64,000 nucleotides of DNA from Brevundimonas sp. NIBR11 (GTDB lineage Bacteria; Pseudomonadota; Alphaproteobacteria; Caulobacterales; Caulobacteraceae): assembly GCF_027912535.1 (NCBI RefSeq), contig NZ_CP115465.1, positions 3,102,260-3,166,259 on the forward strand. The letters run 5' to 3'. Below are positions 12,078 through 37,132 of this stretch, one piece after another. The first letter of the stretch is position 1. Every line of letters starts with the position of its first letter. The position numbers and the translations under genes are program-made. The notes under the pieces were generated by a model. The model made no database searches and was not told the origin of the DNA. It saw only the letters and a list, made by a program, of their open reading frames with translations.

Positions 12078-13925
12078 TCAACGCGATGTGCGGCTGAGGG
12101 TTCCGGGACGGACCTTTTCCGCGCTGGGCTTCAGATCGTCCGGATTGATCGGCACGACGGCCTCCGGGGTGGCGAAGACCATCCGGGCGATGGTGCCGCC
12201 GCCGGGGGCGGTCAGAAGCTCGACCTCGCCGCGCAGCTGTTTGGCGAAGGCGCCCATCAGGGTGCGGCCCACGCCGGCGCGGACGGCCTCGTCGGATGAG
12301 CCCGGCCCGTCGTCCTGGACTTCCAGCGTGCTCCGGTCGCCATGAACGCGGAAGCGGACCTGAAGCGCGCCGCCCCGACCGGCGAAGGCGTGCTTCTGGG
12401 CGTTGGTGATGGCCTCCACCAGCCAAAGCGCCAGCGGCGCCAGCTTGTCGGGATCGACCACGAGACTGTCGGCATCGACGGAGGAGGTGACGGCGTAGCC
12501 GCGTCCGGCTTCGGAGGCGACCATCTGGCCCACCAGTTCGGTCAGGAAGACCTGGGCGTCGGCGTAGCGGATGTCGTCGGACTGGTAGAGGGTGCGGTAG
12601 ATGAGGGCGAGGGCCGATATGCGCTGGCGCGTGTCGCCCAGCGCGGCCTTGGCCGGTTCGTCCTTCAGGGCCCTCTGCTGCATCGACAGCAGCGACGAGA
12701 TGATCTGCAGGTTGTTCTTCACCCTGTGGTGGATCTCGCGCATCAGCGCGTCCTTCTCCGACAGGCTCTCGTTCAGGGACTTGTCGCGGGTGGCGATGGC
12801 CTCGGCCAGTCCATCCAGCGTCTGGGCCAGAAGGCGGATTTCGGCGGGGGCATGGGCGGCCTGGACCGGACGCACCGAATAGCGGCCGCGCGCATAGAGG
12901 GCGGCGATCCGTTCCAGATAGTCGAGCCAGCGCACCACGATGCGCTCGGACACCAGCATGACGGCGGCGAAGGCCGTGACCCAGGCCGCCAGCGGCAGAA
13001 GAAGCACGCCGATGGGGTTCAGCCGCGCCCAGGACAGCAGGCCAGGCGAAGGAGCGGAAATGACGACATAGACGTCGCGTCCGGCCAGGGCGGCGCCGGC
13101 ATAGTCCCGGTGCTCTCCCGAGGCGTTGTCGGCGTCGAAGACCGACGACTGTCCGCTCCGCGCGCGTTCGACCCAGCCGAGCAGACCGTGGCCTTCGCCT
13201 TCCTGGAAGGTGAAGGCGTCGCCGTCGGTGGAGACAAGCACCCGCCCTTGCGCGTCGGTCAGGGCGGCCTGGGCGTCGTCGGGCAGGGCGGGGTCGTTGA
13301 TGTCGGGCTGCAGCTCACTCAGCGGCAGGACGGCGGCCATGGCGCCGGCGAAGACGCCGCGCGGTCGTTCCCATCGGACGCCGATGACCAGGGCGGGCGT
13401 GTCGGTCAGATCGCCGGAGGCGCGGGCCAGGGCGACGTCCTCGCCCGACTTCAGCCGCTGGAACCAGGGTTCGTCGGCGAAGACCGAACCGCTACCGACC
13501 TGAGCCGTGGGGCGGGAATCGCAGACGCTCTGGCCGCCCGCGCCGATCCGGTAGAGGGCGCCGTAGTCGTCGAGGCGCTGGACGAGGTCGGCCAGGCGCG
13601 GGCCGCAGATCGGGGCGGACGCCTCCGGCGCGAGCGCGGACAGCAGGACGGCGGCGGCGTCGAGCCGAAATCTCGCCGCCTCGGCCGTGCGCTCGGCGGC
13701 GAATTGCAGGTCGGCCCGGCGGTCCTCGGCCTGACGCCGAAACTCGACCTGGGCCTGGAAGGCGCCCAGCAGCAGGATGGGCAGAAGGGCGATGGCCATG
13801 GCCAGGCCCAGCCGGAAGCGGATGCCCTGGACGCGGGGGGTCGACACGCCCCGCGCCCAGAATCGGCTGAAGGTGGAGGCCGCGCGCCGGGTGATGCGAC
13901 CCCGCGCGGGCCTAGCGGACTCCAT
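12078..13925 (-). CDS. phyK: Stress-sensing histidine kinase, HisKA_2/HWE type (PhyK-like)
   Basis: 615 residues. One membrane helix near 38-57 and a second near 303-327 bracket a periplasmic sensor of about 245 residues (Cys107 and Cys135 lie inside it). A HAMP-like linker leads to the HisKA_2 motif REIHHRVKNNLQIISSLLS (phospho-His at 399 or 400) and an ATPase domain with an EAITNAQKHAF N-box. This architecture and its position 2 bp after ecfG match PhyK, the kinase that phosphorylates PhyR in Caulobacter. The last 40 residues are probably disordered. Confidence 0.9.
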   Translation of the reverse strand: MESARPARGRITRRAASTFSRFWARGVSTPRVQGIRFRLGLAMAIALLPILLLGAFQAQVEFRRQAEDRRADLQFAAERTAEAARFRLDAAAVLLSALAPEASAPICGPRLADLVQRLDDYGALYRIGAGGQSVCDSRPTAQVGSGSVFADEPWFQRLKSGEDVALARASGDLTDTPALVIGVRWERPRGVFAGAMAAVLPLSELQPDINDPALPDDAQAALTDAQGRVLVSTDGDAFTFQEGEGHGLLGWVERARSGQSSVFDADNASGEHRDYAGAALAGRDVYVVISAPSPGLLSWARLNPIGVLLLPLAAWVTAFAAVMLVSERIVVRWLDYLERIAALYARGRYSVRPVQAAHAPAEIRLLAQTLDGLAEAIATRDKSLNESLSEKDALMREIHHRVKNNLQIISSLLSMQQRALKDEPAKAALGDTRQRISALALIYRTLYQSDDIRYADAQVFLTELVGQMVASEAGRGYAVTSSVDADSLVVDPDKLAPLALWLVEAITNAQKHAFAGRGGALQVRFRVHGDRSTLEVQDDGPGSSDEAVRAGVGRTLMGAFAKQLRGEVELLTAPGGGTIARMVFATPEAVVPINPDDLKPSAEKVRPGTLSRTSR

Positions 13926-13927
13926 GA

Positions 13928-14548
13928 TCAGCCTTGTTGTCGCGCGCCGCTCAGGCGGTCGGCGTCGGCCAGGATCGATCGCATCGCGTCGCCCGCCGCC
14001 CGGCCGTCACGACCGTAGCCGCCGCGTTCGAGCGTGGCCTGAAGCGCCTTTCGAGCCCGGCTGACGCGGCTCTTCACCGTGCCGACGGCGCAGTTGCAGA
14101 TCTCGGCCGCCTCTTCGTAGGCGAAGCCTCCCGCGCCGACCAGGATCAGCGCTTCGCGTTGTTCCTCGGGCAGGGTGTTCAGCGCCTGACGCAGTTCGTC
14201 CAGGGCGACGGGCGCCTCGGGATCGTCGACGGCGACCAGGGTCCGTTCGGCGGCTTCCTGATCCAGCTGAGACGACCGCCAGGAGCGACGCTTTTCCGAA
14301 TAGAACTGGTTGCGCAAAATCATGAAGGTCCAGGCCTTCATGTTCGTCCCCATCTGATACGAGGCGCGGGCGTCCCAGGCCTTCATCATGGCGTCCTGCG
14401 CCAGATCGTCGGCGGCGGTCGGATCGCCGGTCAGTGTGCGGGCGAAGGCGCGCAGATGCGGGATCAGCTGGACCAGTTCACGCTTGAAGCCTTCGTCGTC
14501 GGCGGAAGGCGGCTTGGGCGCGGTCGAGCGGCCAGACGACGCGCTCAC
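13928..14548 (-). CDS. ecfG: General stress response sigma factor EcfG (SigT-like)
   Basis: 206 residues. Sigma region 2 spans about 25-90 (LIPHLRAFARTLTGDPTAAD, then MKAWTFMILRNQFYSE) and region 4 about 125-185 (LNTLPEEQREALILVG, YEEAAEICNCAVGTVKSRVS). EcfG sigma factors read GGAAC/CGTT promoters; several such sites surround this locus. It overlaps nepR by 4 bp (ATGA) and is followed 2 bp later by phyK, so anti-sigma factor, sigma factor and kinase form one transcript. Confidence 0.95.
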   Translation of the reverse strand: MSASSGRSTAPKPPSADDEGFKRELVQLIPHLRAFARTLTGDPTAADDLAQDAMMKAWDARASYQMGTNMKAWTFMILRNQFYSEKRRSWRSSQLDQEAAERTLVAVDDPEAPVALDELRQALNTLPEEQREALILVGAGGFAYEEAAEICNCAVGTVKSRVSRARKALQATLERGGYGRDGRAAGDAMRSILADADRLSGARQQG

Positions 14549-14778
14549 GCCTTGTTCTCGTCGGCGGCGCGTTGGTCGGCGCGACGCAGGATGTCCAGAA
14601 ACTCGTCCGGCACAGGTTCGTTGACGACCTCGTCGAACATGTGGCGCAGCTTCACGCCGATGGCCTGCTGGCGCAGACGCGCTTCTTCCAGCGGCGGTTC
14701 ACCGCTCGCAGACTTGGGCTTGCGCCCGGACTCCGAGGAATCGATCATTAAATATGAGCCGCCAACCGTTGATCTCAT
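14545..14778 (-). CDS. nepR: Anti-sigma factor NepR
   Basis: 77 residues; an internal ATG at 14746-14748 (MIDSSESG) would give 67. The conserved NepR core is visible: IGVKLRHMFDEVVNEPVPDE followed by FLDILRRAD. NepR binds EcfG in unstressed cells and is displaced when phosphorylated PhyR mimics the sigma factor. Position directly upstream of and overlapping ecfG, and divergent from phyR, is the canonical arrangement. Confidence 0.93.
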   Translation of the reverse strand: MRSTVGGSYLMIDSSESGRKPKSASGEPPLEEARLRQQAIGVKLRHMFDEVVNEPVPDEFLDILRRADQRAADENKA

Positions 14779-14831: not shown

Positions 14832-14856
14832 AACGTCGTTCCACCATCAGGGTTCC
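14832..14856 (-). promoter_or_regulatory. EcfG promoter of nepR-ecfG-phyK
   Basis: On the minus strand GGAAC (14856-14852) is separated by exactly 16 bp from CGTT (14835-14832), matching the EcfG/SigT consensus. Transcription would start near 14826, about 48 nt before nepR. Confidence 0.85.
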
Positions 14857-14898: not shown

Positions 14899-14923
14899 GG
14901 AACCGTGGCCATAGTGCGACGTT
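14899..14923 (+). promoter_or_regulatory. EcfG promoter of phyR
   Basis: GGAAC (14899-14903), a 16-bp spacer, then CGTT (14920-14923). Transcription would start near 14929, leaving a leader of about 57 nt before phyR. With the divergent site it makes both halves of the regulatory circuit targets of EcfG. Confidence 0.85.
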
Positions 14924-14985: not shown

Positions 14986-15720
14986 ATGAGCCTTCTGGCC
15001 AGACTTGCGCCGCACCTGCCCTATGTCCGTCGCTACGCGCGGGCCCTGACCGGAGACCAGGCGACGGGCGACAACTATGTGCGCGTCGCCCTCTACCACG
15101 TCTTCCACACCATCTGGTCCACGACCGGCGCCCAGCTCGAAGACGGCAGCGGCATTGAGTCTCAAGGCGACGCCTCCAGCCGACTGATGCGGATCGCCCC
15201 GCGCTCGCGTCAGGCCTTCCTTCTGACCGCGCTCGAAGGCTTCACGCCTTCGGAGGCCGCCCAGATTCTGTCCGCCGACGCCCATTCGGTCGAGCGGCTG
15301 ATCGGCGACGCACAGGCCGAGATCGACGCCGAACTGGCCACCGACGTCCTGATCATCGAGGACGAGGCCATCATTTCCGCCGACATCGAGAGCCTGGTGA
15401 AGGAGCTGGGCCACAACGTCAGCGCCACGGCGACCACCCATGACGAGGCCGTCGACGCCGTCGCGCGTCACAAGCCGGGCTTGGTCCTGGCCGATATCCA
15501 GCTGGCCGACGGCTCGTCGGGCATCGATGCGGTCAAGGACATCCTCAAGAAGTTCGACGTGCCGGTGATCTTCATCACCGCCTTCCCCGAGCGTCTGCTG
15601 ACCGGCGAGCGCCCGGAGCCGACCTTCCTCATCACCAAGCCCTTCCAGCCGGAGACGGTGAAGGCGGCGATCTCGCAGGCCCTGTTCTTCCACCCGACCC
15701 GCCAGAAGGAAGCCGCCTGA
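14986..15720 (+). CDS. phyR: Anti-anti-sigma response regulator PhyR
   Basis: 244 residues. A sigma-like domain at the N-terminus (about 1-115) is fused to a receiver domain (about 119-236). Receiver acid residues Glu125/Asp126, phospho-acceptor Asp170 (LVLADIQLADG), Thr198 and Lys218 (ITKPF) are in place. On phosphorylation the sigma-like domain binds NepR and releases EcfG. GGGGAA precedes the ATG. A strong terminator follows 30 bp after the stop. Confidence 0.96.
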   Translation: MSLLARLAPHLPYVRRYARALTGDQATGDNYVRVALYHVFHTIWSTTGAQLEDGSGIESQGDASSRLMRIAPRSRQAFLLTALEGFTPSEAAQILSADAHSVERLIGDAQAEIDAELATDVLIIEDEAIISADIESLVKELGHNVSATATTHDEAVDAVARHKPGLVLADIQLADGSSGIDAVKDILKKFDVPVIFITAFPERLLTGERPEPTFLITKPFQPETVKAAISQALFFHPTRQKEAA

Positions 15721-15796: not shown

Positions 15797-16132
15797 TCAG
15801 TTGGCCGGAGGGTTGACGTTCGGCTCAGTCCCGGCCGGCGTCGGAGCGGGCTCGCCCGTCGCATTGGTCGGCGCGTCCGGTGTCGGCGGGCCAGAGTTGT
15901 CGAAGGCGGCGGCGTCCACCGTCTGGGCGCCCGTGTTGGCGTTCTGCGAAGCGAAGCCGCCGTTGGAAAGGAACCACATTCCGAGCAGCAGGATCGCCGC
16001 GGCTCCGGCAGAAACGATCAGCAGGACGAGGATGCGCTTTCCGGGCCGGGCGCCGCGCACATACTGGGCGTCGACGGGGCGGCCTTCGTGGACCGCGTCG
16101 GCCGCTTCGGAATGGGGATCGTGATGGGTCAT
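15797..16132 (-). CDS. Single-pass membrane protein, likely EcfG regulon member
   Basis: 111 residues from the ATG at 16130-16132, preceded by GGAAGGA. The upstream ATG at 16171 overlaps the promoter -10 and is rejected. A soluble N-terminus (MTHHDPHSEAADAVHEG) is followed by one transmembrane helix (about 34-54, ILVLLIVSAGAAAILLLGMW) and a Pro/Thr/Asn-rich tail. No enzymatic domain is recognised. Its EcfG promoter and adjacency to phyR suggest a role in stress physiology, but the function is unknown. Confidence 0.75.
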   Translation of the reverse strand: MTHHDPHSEAADAVHEGRPVDAQYVRGARPGKRILVLLIVSAGAAAILLLGMWFLSNGGFASQNANTGAQTVDAAAFDNSGPPTPDAPTNATGEPAPTPAGTEPNVNPPAN

Positions 16133-16169: not shown

Positions 16170-16194
16170 AACGCCGGGTCAGCGTGGCCGTTCC
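16170..16194 (-). promoter_or_regulatory. EcfG promoter of the membrane protein at 15797-16132
   Basis: Minus-strand GGAAC (16194-16190), a 16-bp spacer, then CGTT (16173-16170). The predicted start of transcription near 16164 gives a leader of about 30 nt to the ATG at 16132. Confidence 0.82.
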
Positions 16195-16239: not shown

Positions 16240-16264
16240 GGAACGGTTATCGAATGACGCCGTT
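16240..16264 (+). promoter_or_regulatory. EcfG promoter of a candidate small RNA
   Basis: GGAAC (16240-16244), 16-bp spacer, CGTT (16261-16264) on the plus strand. The next gene starts only at 16448 and an intrinsic terminator intervenes, so the promoter most simply serves a short noncoding transcript starting near 16270. Confidence 0.8.
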
Positions 16265-16270
16265 CTCAAT

Positions 16271-16390
16271 CTGCGGAGGCGGCGACGCCCCCCCCGACTT
16301 GGACCGGCCACAGCCGGTCCTGCCGCCTCCGCGCCTCATTCTCGATGATGCCACTAGGCCGGTTCCTTCAGGGAGCCGGCTTTTTCTTTT
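16271..16390 (+). ncRNA. gsrN: Candidate stress-induced sRNA, GsrN-like
   Basis: A transcript of about 120 nt is bounded by the EcfG promoter and a terminator (GCCGGTTCC at 16358-16366 with GGGAGCCGGC at 16371-16380, then TTTTTCTTTT). The 5' part folds into an extended hairpin: GCGGAGGCGGC (16273-16283) pairs with GCCGCCTCCGC (16322-16332), enclosing GGACCGGC/GCCGGTCC (16301-16308 with 16313-16320) around a CACA loop. A run of eight C (16288-16295) lies in the unpaired part. Caulobacter GsrN is a SigT-dependent sRNA with a C-rich 5' target-binding loop, often near the stress locus; the match here is structural and positional, not by alignment. Confidence 0.75.
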
Positions 16391-16447: not shown

Positions 16448-17485
16448 ATGACCATGGCCCCCAGTTCTGGAAATACGAATCGCCAATGGGTGCTGCGCCA
16501 GCGGCCGCAGGGCCTGATCAAGGACGGCGATCTGGAACTGGTCTCCAATGTCGTGCCGGACCTGAAGGACGGCGAGGTTCTGGTCCGCACCATCTATCTG
16601 TCGCTGGACCCGACCAACCGAACCTGGATGAACGACGCGGTGGGCTATCTCCCCCCGGTAGGCCTGGGCGAGGTCATGCGCGGCCTGACGCTGGGCGTGA
16701 TCGAAGACTCGAAATCCCAGAAGTTCGCGGTCGGGGACTTGGTCACCACAGCGATGGGCGGCTGGTCCGACTACGGAGTGGTGCCGGACACGGGCGTGTC
16801 GCGCGTCCACCGCGCGCCGGGGCTGCCACTGACGGCCAACATGTCGGTGCTCGGCATGACGGGCCTGACCGCCTGGGCGGGCGTCACCGACGTCCTGCGT
16901 CCGGAGCCCGGTCAGGTCATGGTCATCTCGGCCGCCGCCGGCGCCGTCGGCTCCATCGCCGGTCAGATCGCCAAGCAGAAGGGCGCCCATGTCATCGGCA
17001 TCGCCGGCGGCCCGGAGAAATGCCGCTGGCTGACCGAGGACCTCGGGTTCGACGCCGCCATCGACTACAAAAACGAGGACGTCGGCGAGGCGCTGGACCG
17101 TCTGGCCCCGAACGGCGTCGACCTCAATTTCGAGAACGTCGGCGGCGACATCATGGTGGCGGTCTGGAACCGGCTGAACATCCACGCCCGCATGGCCGTC
17201 TGCGGCATGGTTTCGGCCTACAACGCCACGAAGCGCCCGCCCTCGCCAGACCTCAGCCGCCTGATTACCCACAGAATGACGATGCAGGGCTTCCTGGTCA
17301 TGGACTATTCGCCGCGCGCCAAAGAGTTCGTGGCCGAGGTCGGTCCGTGGCTGGCCTCGGGCAAGGTCCAGTGGAAGGTTCACGTCGACAACGGTCTGGA
17401 AGGCGCGCTGACGTCGCTGAACCGCCTGTTCACGGGCGACCACGACGGCAAGCTTCTGGTACGGGTGTCCGAAGAACCCGCCTGA
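16448..17485 (+). CDS. Zinc-independent NADP-dependent oxidoreductase (MDR superfamily)
   Basis: About 345 residues. Start at ATG 16448 or 16454; CCGGAG just upstream fits either. It has the MDR fold without catalytic zinc ligands: N-terminal WVLRQRPQGLIKDGDLEL, SLDPTNRTWM, then the cofactor loop AAAGAVGSIAGQIAKQKG and YKNEDVGEAL. This is the leukotriene B4 12-hydroxydehydrogenase/CurA-like group, which reduces the double bond of enones with NADPH. It lies 58 bp after the sRNA terminator and shares a short gap with the MaoC-like gene. Confidence 0.9.
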   Translation: MTMAPSSGNTNRQWVLRQRPQGLIKDGDLELVSNVVPDLKDGEVLVRTIYLSLDPTNRTWMNDAVGYLPPVGLGEVMRGLTLGVIEDSKSQKFAVGDLVTTAMGGWSDYGVVPDTGVSRVHRAPGLPLTANMSVLGMTGLTAWAGVTDVLRPEPGQVMVISAAAGAVGSIAGQIAKQKGAHVIGIAGGPEKCRWLTEDLGFDAAIDYKNEDVGEALDRLAPNGVDLNFENVGGDIMVAVWNRLNIHARMAVCGMVSAYNATKRPPSPDLSRLITHRMTMQGFLVMDYSPRAKEFVAEVGPWLASGKVQWKVHVDNGLEGALTSLNRLFTGDHDGKLLVRVSEEPA

Positions 17486-37055: not shown

Positions 37056-37132
37056 GCACCCGTAGCTCAGCTGGATAGAGTGCTGCCCTCCGAAGGCAGA
37101 GGTCACAGGTTCGAATCCTGTCGGGTGCGCCA
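37056..37132 (+). tRNA. tRNA-Arg (anticodon CCG)
   Basis: 77 nt with an encoded CCA. Acceptor GCACCCG/CGGGTGC, D arm GCTC..GAGT, anticodon stem CTGCC/GGCAG with loop CTCCGAA (anticodon CCG at 37090-37092), T arm ACAGG-TTCGAAT-CCTGT. It reads CGG arginine codons. A TTGAGC (36999) and TAAGGC (37022) pair 17 bp apart could be its promoter. Confidence 0.97.

Follow-up and report, generated by a model that had tools for sequence, protein, structure and literature searches.

A probable gsrN small RNA gene with a loop of eight cytosines at the GSR locus of Brevundimonas

The closest described relative of the RNA considered here is GsrN (ccna_R0081) of Caulobacter crescentus. According to PMC5869019, GsrN depends on sigma-T for its transcription and is then processed into a stable 5′ isoform, and it activates katG by pairing of its C-rich loop with GUCGGGG at the extreme 5′ end of the mRNA, a contact proven by compensatory mutations. 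The 3′ half of GsrN is dispensable for peroxide survival, 27 of its 67 predicted interactions run through the 3′ exposed region, and its osmotic-stress target is left open in the sections of that paper used here (PMC5869019). Homologues found by BLASTn in Brevundimonas and Phenylobacterium, typically proximal to ecfG-nepR-phyR, are reported by Tien et al. 2018, hence a Brevundimonas gsrN in this neighbourhood is already known. The same report describes EcfG-dependent GsrN-like RNAs of Rhizobiaceae and other groups, which are located near the general-stress-response (GSR) locus and have an EcfG site and a C-rich 5′ loop (Tien et al. 2018).

The window is the whole stretch of DNA that was analysed, 64,000 nucleotides of Brevundimonas sp. 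NIBR11 (NZ_CP115465.1, positions 3,102,260 to 3,166,259 of the forward strand), and all positions below are counted from its first letter. A preliminary description had pointed to a candidate GsrN homologue in it; the observation is confirmed as a whole and the interpretation as GsrN is supported. Like GsrN of C. crescentus, the window RNA has an EcfG-type promoter, a length of about 106 nt, a nested 5′ hairpin whose C-rich loop reads GACGC(n)GACUUG, a presumed further exposed region on the 3′ side and an intrinsic terminator, and the complements of the published C. crescentus target sites fit a loop of the window type (PMC5869019). The C-run, however, has eight residues in the window RNA and six in C. 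crescentus GsrN, and the gene is at the GSR locus in the window, whereas C. crescentus is named as an exception with gsrN distal from this locus (PMC5869019). The Brevundimonas homologue reported by Tien et al. 2018 is in effect the RNA described here, possibly from a different species. We consider it highly probable that the window RNA is the gsrN of Brevundimonas, an EcfG-driven stand-alone sRNA which would act by pairing of its C-loop.

The covariance check, set beforehand as the point at which the homology could be refuted, returned a match over the full length of the model RF01529/CC3552 (model positions 1–106) at 16275–16379 on the plus strand, scoring 82.3 bits where the cut-off is 50, with an E-value of 1.3e-11. 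This is the single match in the whole genome of the window species, and among 14 control genomes only Caulobacter vibrioides has one. At E 0.001 the model matches 84 of 149 genomes of the family, 79 of them above the cut-off; a second match in one genome (G078) is weak, at 35.4 bits below the cut-off, is absent with our own model R1 and was left out of the counts. R1 matches 85 of the 149 genomes. At the order level 36 of 200 sampled genomes match, every one in the window's own family. The class-wide draw yields three R1 matches in 385 genomes, one in the genome of the window and two in congeners, under strict filters with which weak matches could be lost.

The identity of RF01529 with GsrN was tested through target sites, since the name CC3552 was not found in the literature examined. 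The GsrN-interacting sequences GUCGGGGGGCGUC and UCAAGUCGGGGC of Table 1 in PMC5869019 are exact complements of the RF01529 loop GACGCCCCCCGACUUGA, which has six C. The GsrN deletion names in PMC5869019 number up to nt 106, and the RF01529 model has 106 positions, equal to this numbering. Furthermore, in two Caulobacter genomes (G130 and G096) gsrN is located about 83–85 kb from phyR on the same contig, which fits the stated C. crescentus exception and thus supports the identity. The target-site complements, the length and the distal Caulobacter gene together indicate that RF01529 is very probably GsrN.

For comparison of loci, at least 120 loci were picked by a pattern of the 5′ loop, and 114 were counted after L044, L073, L075, L083, L118 and L139 had been dropped as chance matches. 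In the window, the GSR locus comprises the HWE/HisKA_2 histidine kinase (12078–13925), ecfG (13928–14548) and nepR (14545–14778, with an EcfG-type site at 14832–14856), all on the minus strand, and phyR on the plus strand (14986–15720, with an EcfG-type site at 14899–14923). The RNA had been placed beside phyR; it does belong to the GSR locus, but phyR is not its immediate neighbour, as a small ORF (15797–16132, minus strand) is situated between them. This ORF is divergent from gsrN, has an EcfG-type site at 16170–16194 on the minus strand and encodes a small predicted membrane protein without a Pfam match, its membrane segment being judged by eye from the sequence. Relatives of the protein are found upstream of the RNA in 45 of the 114 listed loci (tblastn, E 1e-3), with the strongest matches in Brevundimonas and weaker ones in Caulobacter and others. 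A further GGAAC-N16-CGTT element at 12080–12104 (minus strand) lies within the 3′-terminal part of the histidine kinase gene and points outward, and a tRNA gene is found by Rfam at 37056–37129.

The association with the locus is conserved. Among the loci listed, PhyR is encoded upstream of the RNA in 78 of the 82 that extend 2 kb or more in that direction, the other four having no PhyR within the upstream DNA covered, and PhyR, NepR and EcfG are all present in 68 of the 70 with at least 2.6 kb. Over the 149 genomes of the family, 83 have both GsrN and PhyR, 2 only GsrN, 22 only PhyR and 42 neither; the Fisher value of 2e-18 ignores kinship and overstates the evidence, as the genomes are related, yet the direction is plain. 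Hence 22 of 105 PhyR-bearing genomes are without a GsrN match. A relaxed terminator scan of these 22 gave, in the author's judgement, no convincing GsrN-like RNA beyond G107 and G127, which are discussed below; some of the contigs scanned end near phyR, and second PhyR copies of G018, G027 and G040 were left out.

The promoter described beforehand as a perfect GGAAC-N16-CGTT is indeed present at 16240–16264 on the plus strand, as read directly and by a whole-genome pattern search, with GGAAC at 16240–16244 and CGTT at 16261–16264. A single match of this type carries little weight, because the genome contains 70 GGAAC-N15-18-CGTT sites versus 40 for the reversed control pattern. It is the kept position that outweighs the motif match itself. 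GGAAC precedes the hairpin motif by 38–40 nt (38 nt in the window) in all 112 listed relatives with at least 60 nt of upstream sequence, 2 of the 114 having less, and strict GGAAC-N15-17-CGTT is found upstream of the RNA in 64 of the 112. By homology the RNA starts near 16275, and the transcript probably runs on to about 16388, so that its length is about 105–114 nt rather than the about 120 nt from 16270 proposed originally. It ends, as had been claimed, at an intrinsic terminator with a U-tract (16356–16388), formed by a hairpin at 16356–16382 and a T-rich tail, which was found by a terminator scan and by folding; the scan gives 4 such sites in 2.5 kb versus 1.4 expected.

A gene for a zinc-type oxidoreductase, running from about 16448 to 17485, follows on the same strand about 60 nt past the terminator, and the RNA might be the leader or attenuator of this gene with no free sRNA being made. 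This is very improbable. The terminator stands between the two, the RNA has its own promoter element GGAAC in 112 of 112 listed relatives, and the oxidoreductase accompanies just 31 of the 114 listed RNA-bearing loci and none of those titled Caulobacter or Phenylobacterium, although a few of these span less than 1 kb downstream. The leader reading is rejected, as the synteny with the oxidoreductase is not kept. A protein-coding reading is rejected as well. Mechanically called ORFs do overlap the stretch, which had been described as lacking coding potential; however, the C-run varies from 6 to 10 residues across the 114 listed loci, a variation incompatible with any reading frame through it.

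The 5′ half of the stand-alone RNA folds, by prediction, into the nested hairpin anticipated with stems of 11 and 8 bp. The outer stem pairs 16273–16284 with 16321–16332 through 11 Watson-Crick pairs and one G-U, and the inner hairpin GGACCGGC-CACA-GCCGGUCC (16301–16320) has 8 pairs, 16301–16308 with 16313–16320. The minimum free energy is −66.5 kcal/mol (z −6.06), equalled by none of 200 shuffles. Between the two stems on the 5′ side lies a 16-nt loop, 16285–16300, presumed from sequence to be the target-pairing loop homologous to that published for GsrN, and inside it the run of eight C at 16288–16295, which is exposed as described (mean predicted unpaired probability 0.94). Downstream of the outer stem, the conserved 3′ segment CTCATTCTCGATGATGC (16335–16351), delimited by comparison of loci, presumably corresponds to the other exposed region of GsrN, the one on its 3′ side. 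Among the 31 other Brevundimonas loci listed, the C-run has six residues in 11 and seven in 20, so the eight of the window are unusual for Brevundimonas in the set counted.

Covariation was evaluated in an alignment of 60 of the 126 distinct sequences (A1), with the window standing in for L001. In the two helices 97.5% of cells are paired versus 93.0 in shuffles, and 66 cells have both sides changed versus 17.3 in shuffles and 0–10 in slid controls. Double changes are found in 7 of 17 pairs versus 4.4 in shuffles, a number that 7 of 500 shuffles reach; further pair types are not above shuffles in this alignment (17 versus 16.8). The inner helix carries most of the change, with 6 of its own 7 pairs in A1 changed on both sides. 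The loop and its flanks are near-invariant in the 60 aligned sequences; most of these were picked by that very loop, so that its conservation comes partly from selection of loci, whereas the 3′ segment played no part in the picking.

C-rich motifs are found in several other sRNA systems (PMC5869019), and an unrelated EcfG-driven sRNA might have come to resemble GsrN by chance or convergence, as might be the case for Rhizobiales candidates recognised by synteny only. The Rhizobiaceae RNAs are likened to GsrN by description and synteny, and all three R1 matches in the 385 class genomes, obtained with strict filters, are Brevundimonas. For the window RNA such chance likeness is extremely improbable, being contradicted by the full-length RF01529 match, by the covariation and by the shared locus, as well as by the near-invariant loop and flanks, even with most of those sequences picked by the loop.

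For the gsrN of the window we suggest the following mechanism, modelled on Caulobacter. Under stress the PhyR-NepR-EcfG switch would free EcfG, which would transcribe the stand-alone RNA up to its intrinsic terminator. The 5′ half would fold so that the loop ACGC8GACUU is presented single-stranded. Cleavage where the outer stem ends would probably leave a stable 5′ isoform; the cut at nt 51–54 of GsrN (PMC5869019) corresponds by homology to about 16325–16328. The loop may then pair with G-rich stretches of mRNAs and alter their translation or stability. We take C-loop pairing as the working mechanism, the anatomy being the same as in Caulobacter GsrN.

The choice of targets, however, seems to differ. 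Pairing with katG as in Caulobacter had been implied, and by sequence comparison this route, through the Caulobacter site, does not extend to the window species. Its own katG (G000:C1, from 16081) has no GUCGGGG within 60 nt upstream of the start codon, where the longest complement of the loop is 4 nt, and the best duplex with the loop is no better than in shuffles (0.29 of them being as good). The search for G-rich sites complementary to the loop, proposed at the outset, gave no enrichment: in the own genome there are 7 exact 10-mer complements, one of them the gene's own antisense, versus 11 for a reversed control, and across 31 Brevundimonas genomes 211 versus 404, the control keeping base content and not all word content. 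Inspection by eye of the six other own-genome sites named no target. A 13-nt complement, CAAGTCGGGGGGC, is found within K-S-G-G codons of a reading frame at L218 near 1500 (G000:C1:405961), which we take to be TonB-dependent-receptor-like, and is probably codon-driven.

We lean slightly towards the view that the Brevundimonas RNA is GsrN by descent but retargeted: its C-loop would act on other G-rich messages, such as those of osmotic-stress genes, and not directly on katG; this view is compatible with the assignment as gsrN. GUCGGGG is found in none of 21 Brevundimonas katG leaders and in 3 of 19 of Caulobacter, and loop complements 6 nt or longer in 2 of the 21 versus 9 of the 19 (Fisher p 0.012, kinship ignored). 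The comparison covers all 19 Caulobacter leaders (g22) and 21 of 22 Brevundimonas ones (g1), as G135 was dropped with its match at a contig end, and the start codons of G077 and G096 were reset by hand. A wider run drew 60 leaders from the 85 KatG-positive genomes; those of g6 (Phenylobacterium) and g17 are outside the genus comparison, and one of these, the G136 leader, contains GTCGGGG. Against retargeting, single Caulobacter sites of 6 or more nt are within shuffles (fractions 0.06–0.24), Brevundimonas katG may have a longer leader than the 60 nt upstream of the start codon that were taken here, and in Brevundimonas a control stretch of equal length from the coding region gives longer matches than the leader (mean 6.2 versus 4.6, and as many as 9 nt in 5 of the 21). 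Short katG complements are thus weak evidence either way. KatG has no hit at E 1e-15 in 23 of the 85 GsrN-bearing genomes, some of which are incomplete, and katG is therefore unlikely to be the sole reason to keep GsrN; the two do nevertheless co-occur, with 62 genomes having both, 23 and 23 one only and 41 neither (Fisher 1e-5, kinship ignored).

The 3′ half presents another picture. Among the 31 Brevundimonas loci listed, which were picked by the 5′ loop, CTCATTCTCGATGATG is found in 30, and the mean top-letter frequency of the 24-nt 3′ region is 97.9% versus 71.5% in the terminator stem. Of the loci listed, 30 of 31 in Brevundimonas, 26 of 31 in Phenylobacterium and 6 of 28 in Caulobacter carry the segment TCTCGATGATGC; this sets Brevundimonas apart from Caulobacter and means that the 3′ segment is not universal. 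Two of the 24 Brevundimonas genomes in the family draw, G127 and G107, are without a GsrN match. Downstream of phyR both keep an EcfG-type promoter, TTCTCGATGATGCGACT and the terminator, with a different 5′ module in place of the usual one (L258:2912–3061 in G127 and L257:3399–3548 in G107, both on the minus strand). Neither passed in the whole-genome search with R1; on the extracted loci R1 gives 31.9 bits (E 3.4e-4) for G127 and 17.9 bits (E 0.19, not significant alone) for G107. G127 keeps the nested shape and a loop, UAUUCCCCGG, still with four C, and in the G107 locus the nested shape is not seen. The reverse is found in a third Brevundimonas genome, G092, in which the C-loop is kept and the conserved 3′ segment lost (L282:4040–4189). 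KatG, too, gave no hit in G092 and G127, alone among the 24 Brevundimonas genomes.

These variant loci, from three genomes and with one below significance, suggest that targets turn over and that the 3′ half is under selection separately. We put forward, as a tentative and rather doubtful proposal, that GsrN consists of two modules kept or lost separately, with UCUCGAUGAUGC selected independently of the C-loop and C-loop targets turning over between genera. As parts of the same tentative proposal, UCUCGAUGAUGC might pair with, or be read by, a partner independent of the C-loop, and katG might be targeted in part of Caulobacter and not in Brevundimonas. Simple decay of the gene in G127, G107 and G092 is a possible alternative to separate modules, and the lack of the 3′ segment in most Caulobacter loci (kept in 6 of the 28 listed) also speaks against them. 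To our knowledge, RprA of Escherichia coli is unrelated to GsrN in sequence. It provides an analogy for two modules, as a stress sRNA that undergoes processing and pairs through a second region as well, though its stable isoform is the 3′ one, unlike the 5′ isoform of GsrN (PMC5869019).

The case confirms that a genuine regulatory RNA can be recognised, and named, from raw sequence. General searches for GsrN in the open-licence literature leave the impression that the absence of the katG site and the exchange of modules are not in print, and these are the parts that deserve a second look. katG, the best-studied target of GsrN, should not be taken for granted in Brevundimonas. The natural variants, with the 5′ module changed and the 3′ half kept and the reverse, would allow one to ask directly for the role of each half. 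If the two-module proposal is true, the half that is dispensable for peroxide survival would have a role of its own, perhaps in osmotic stress.
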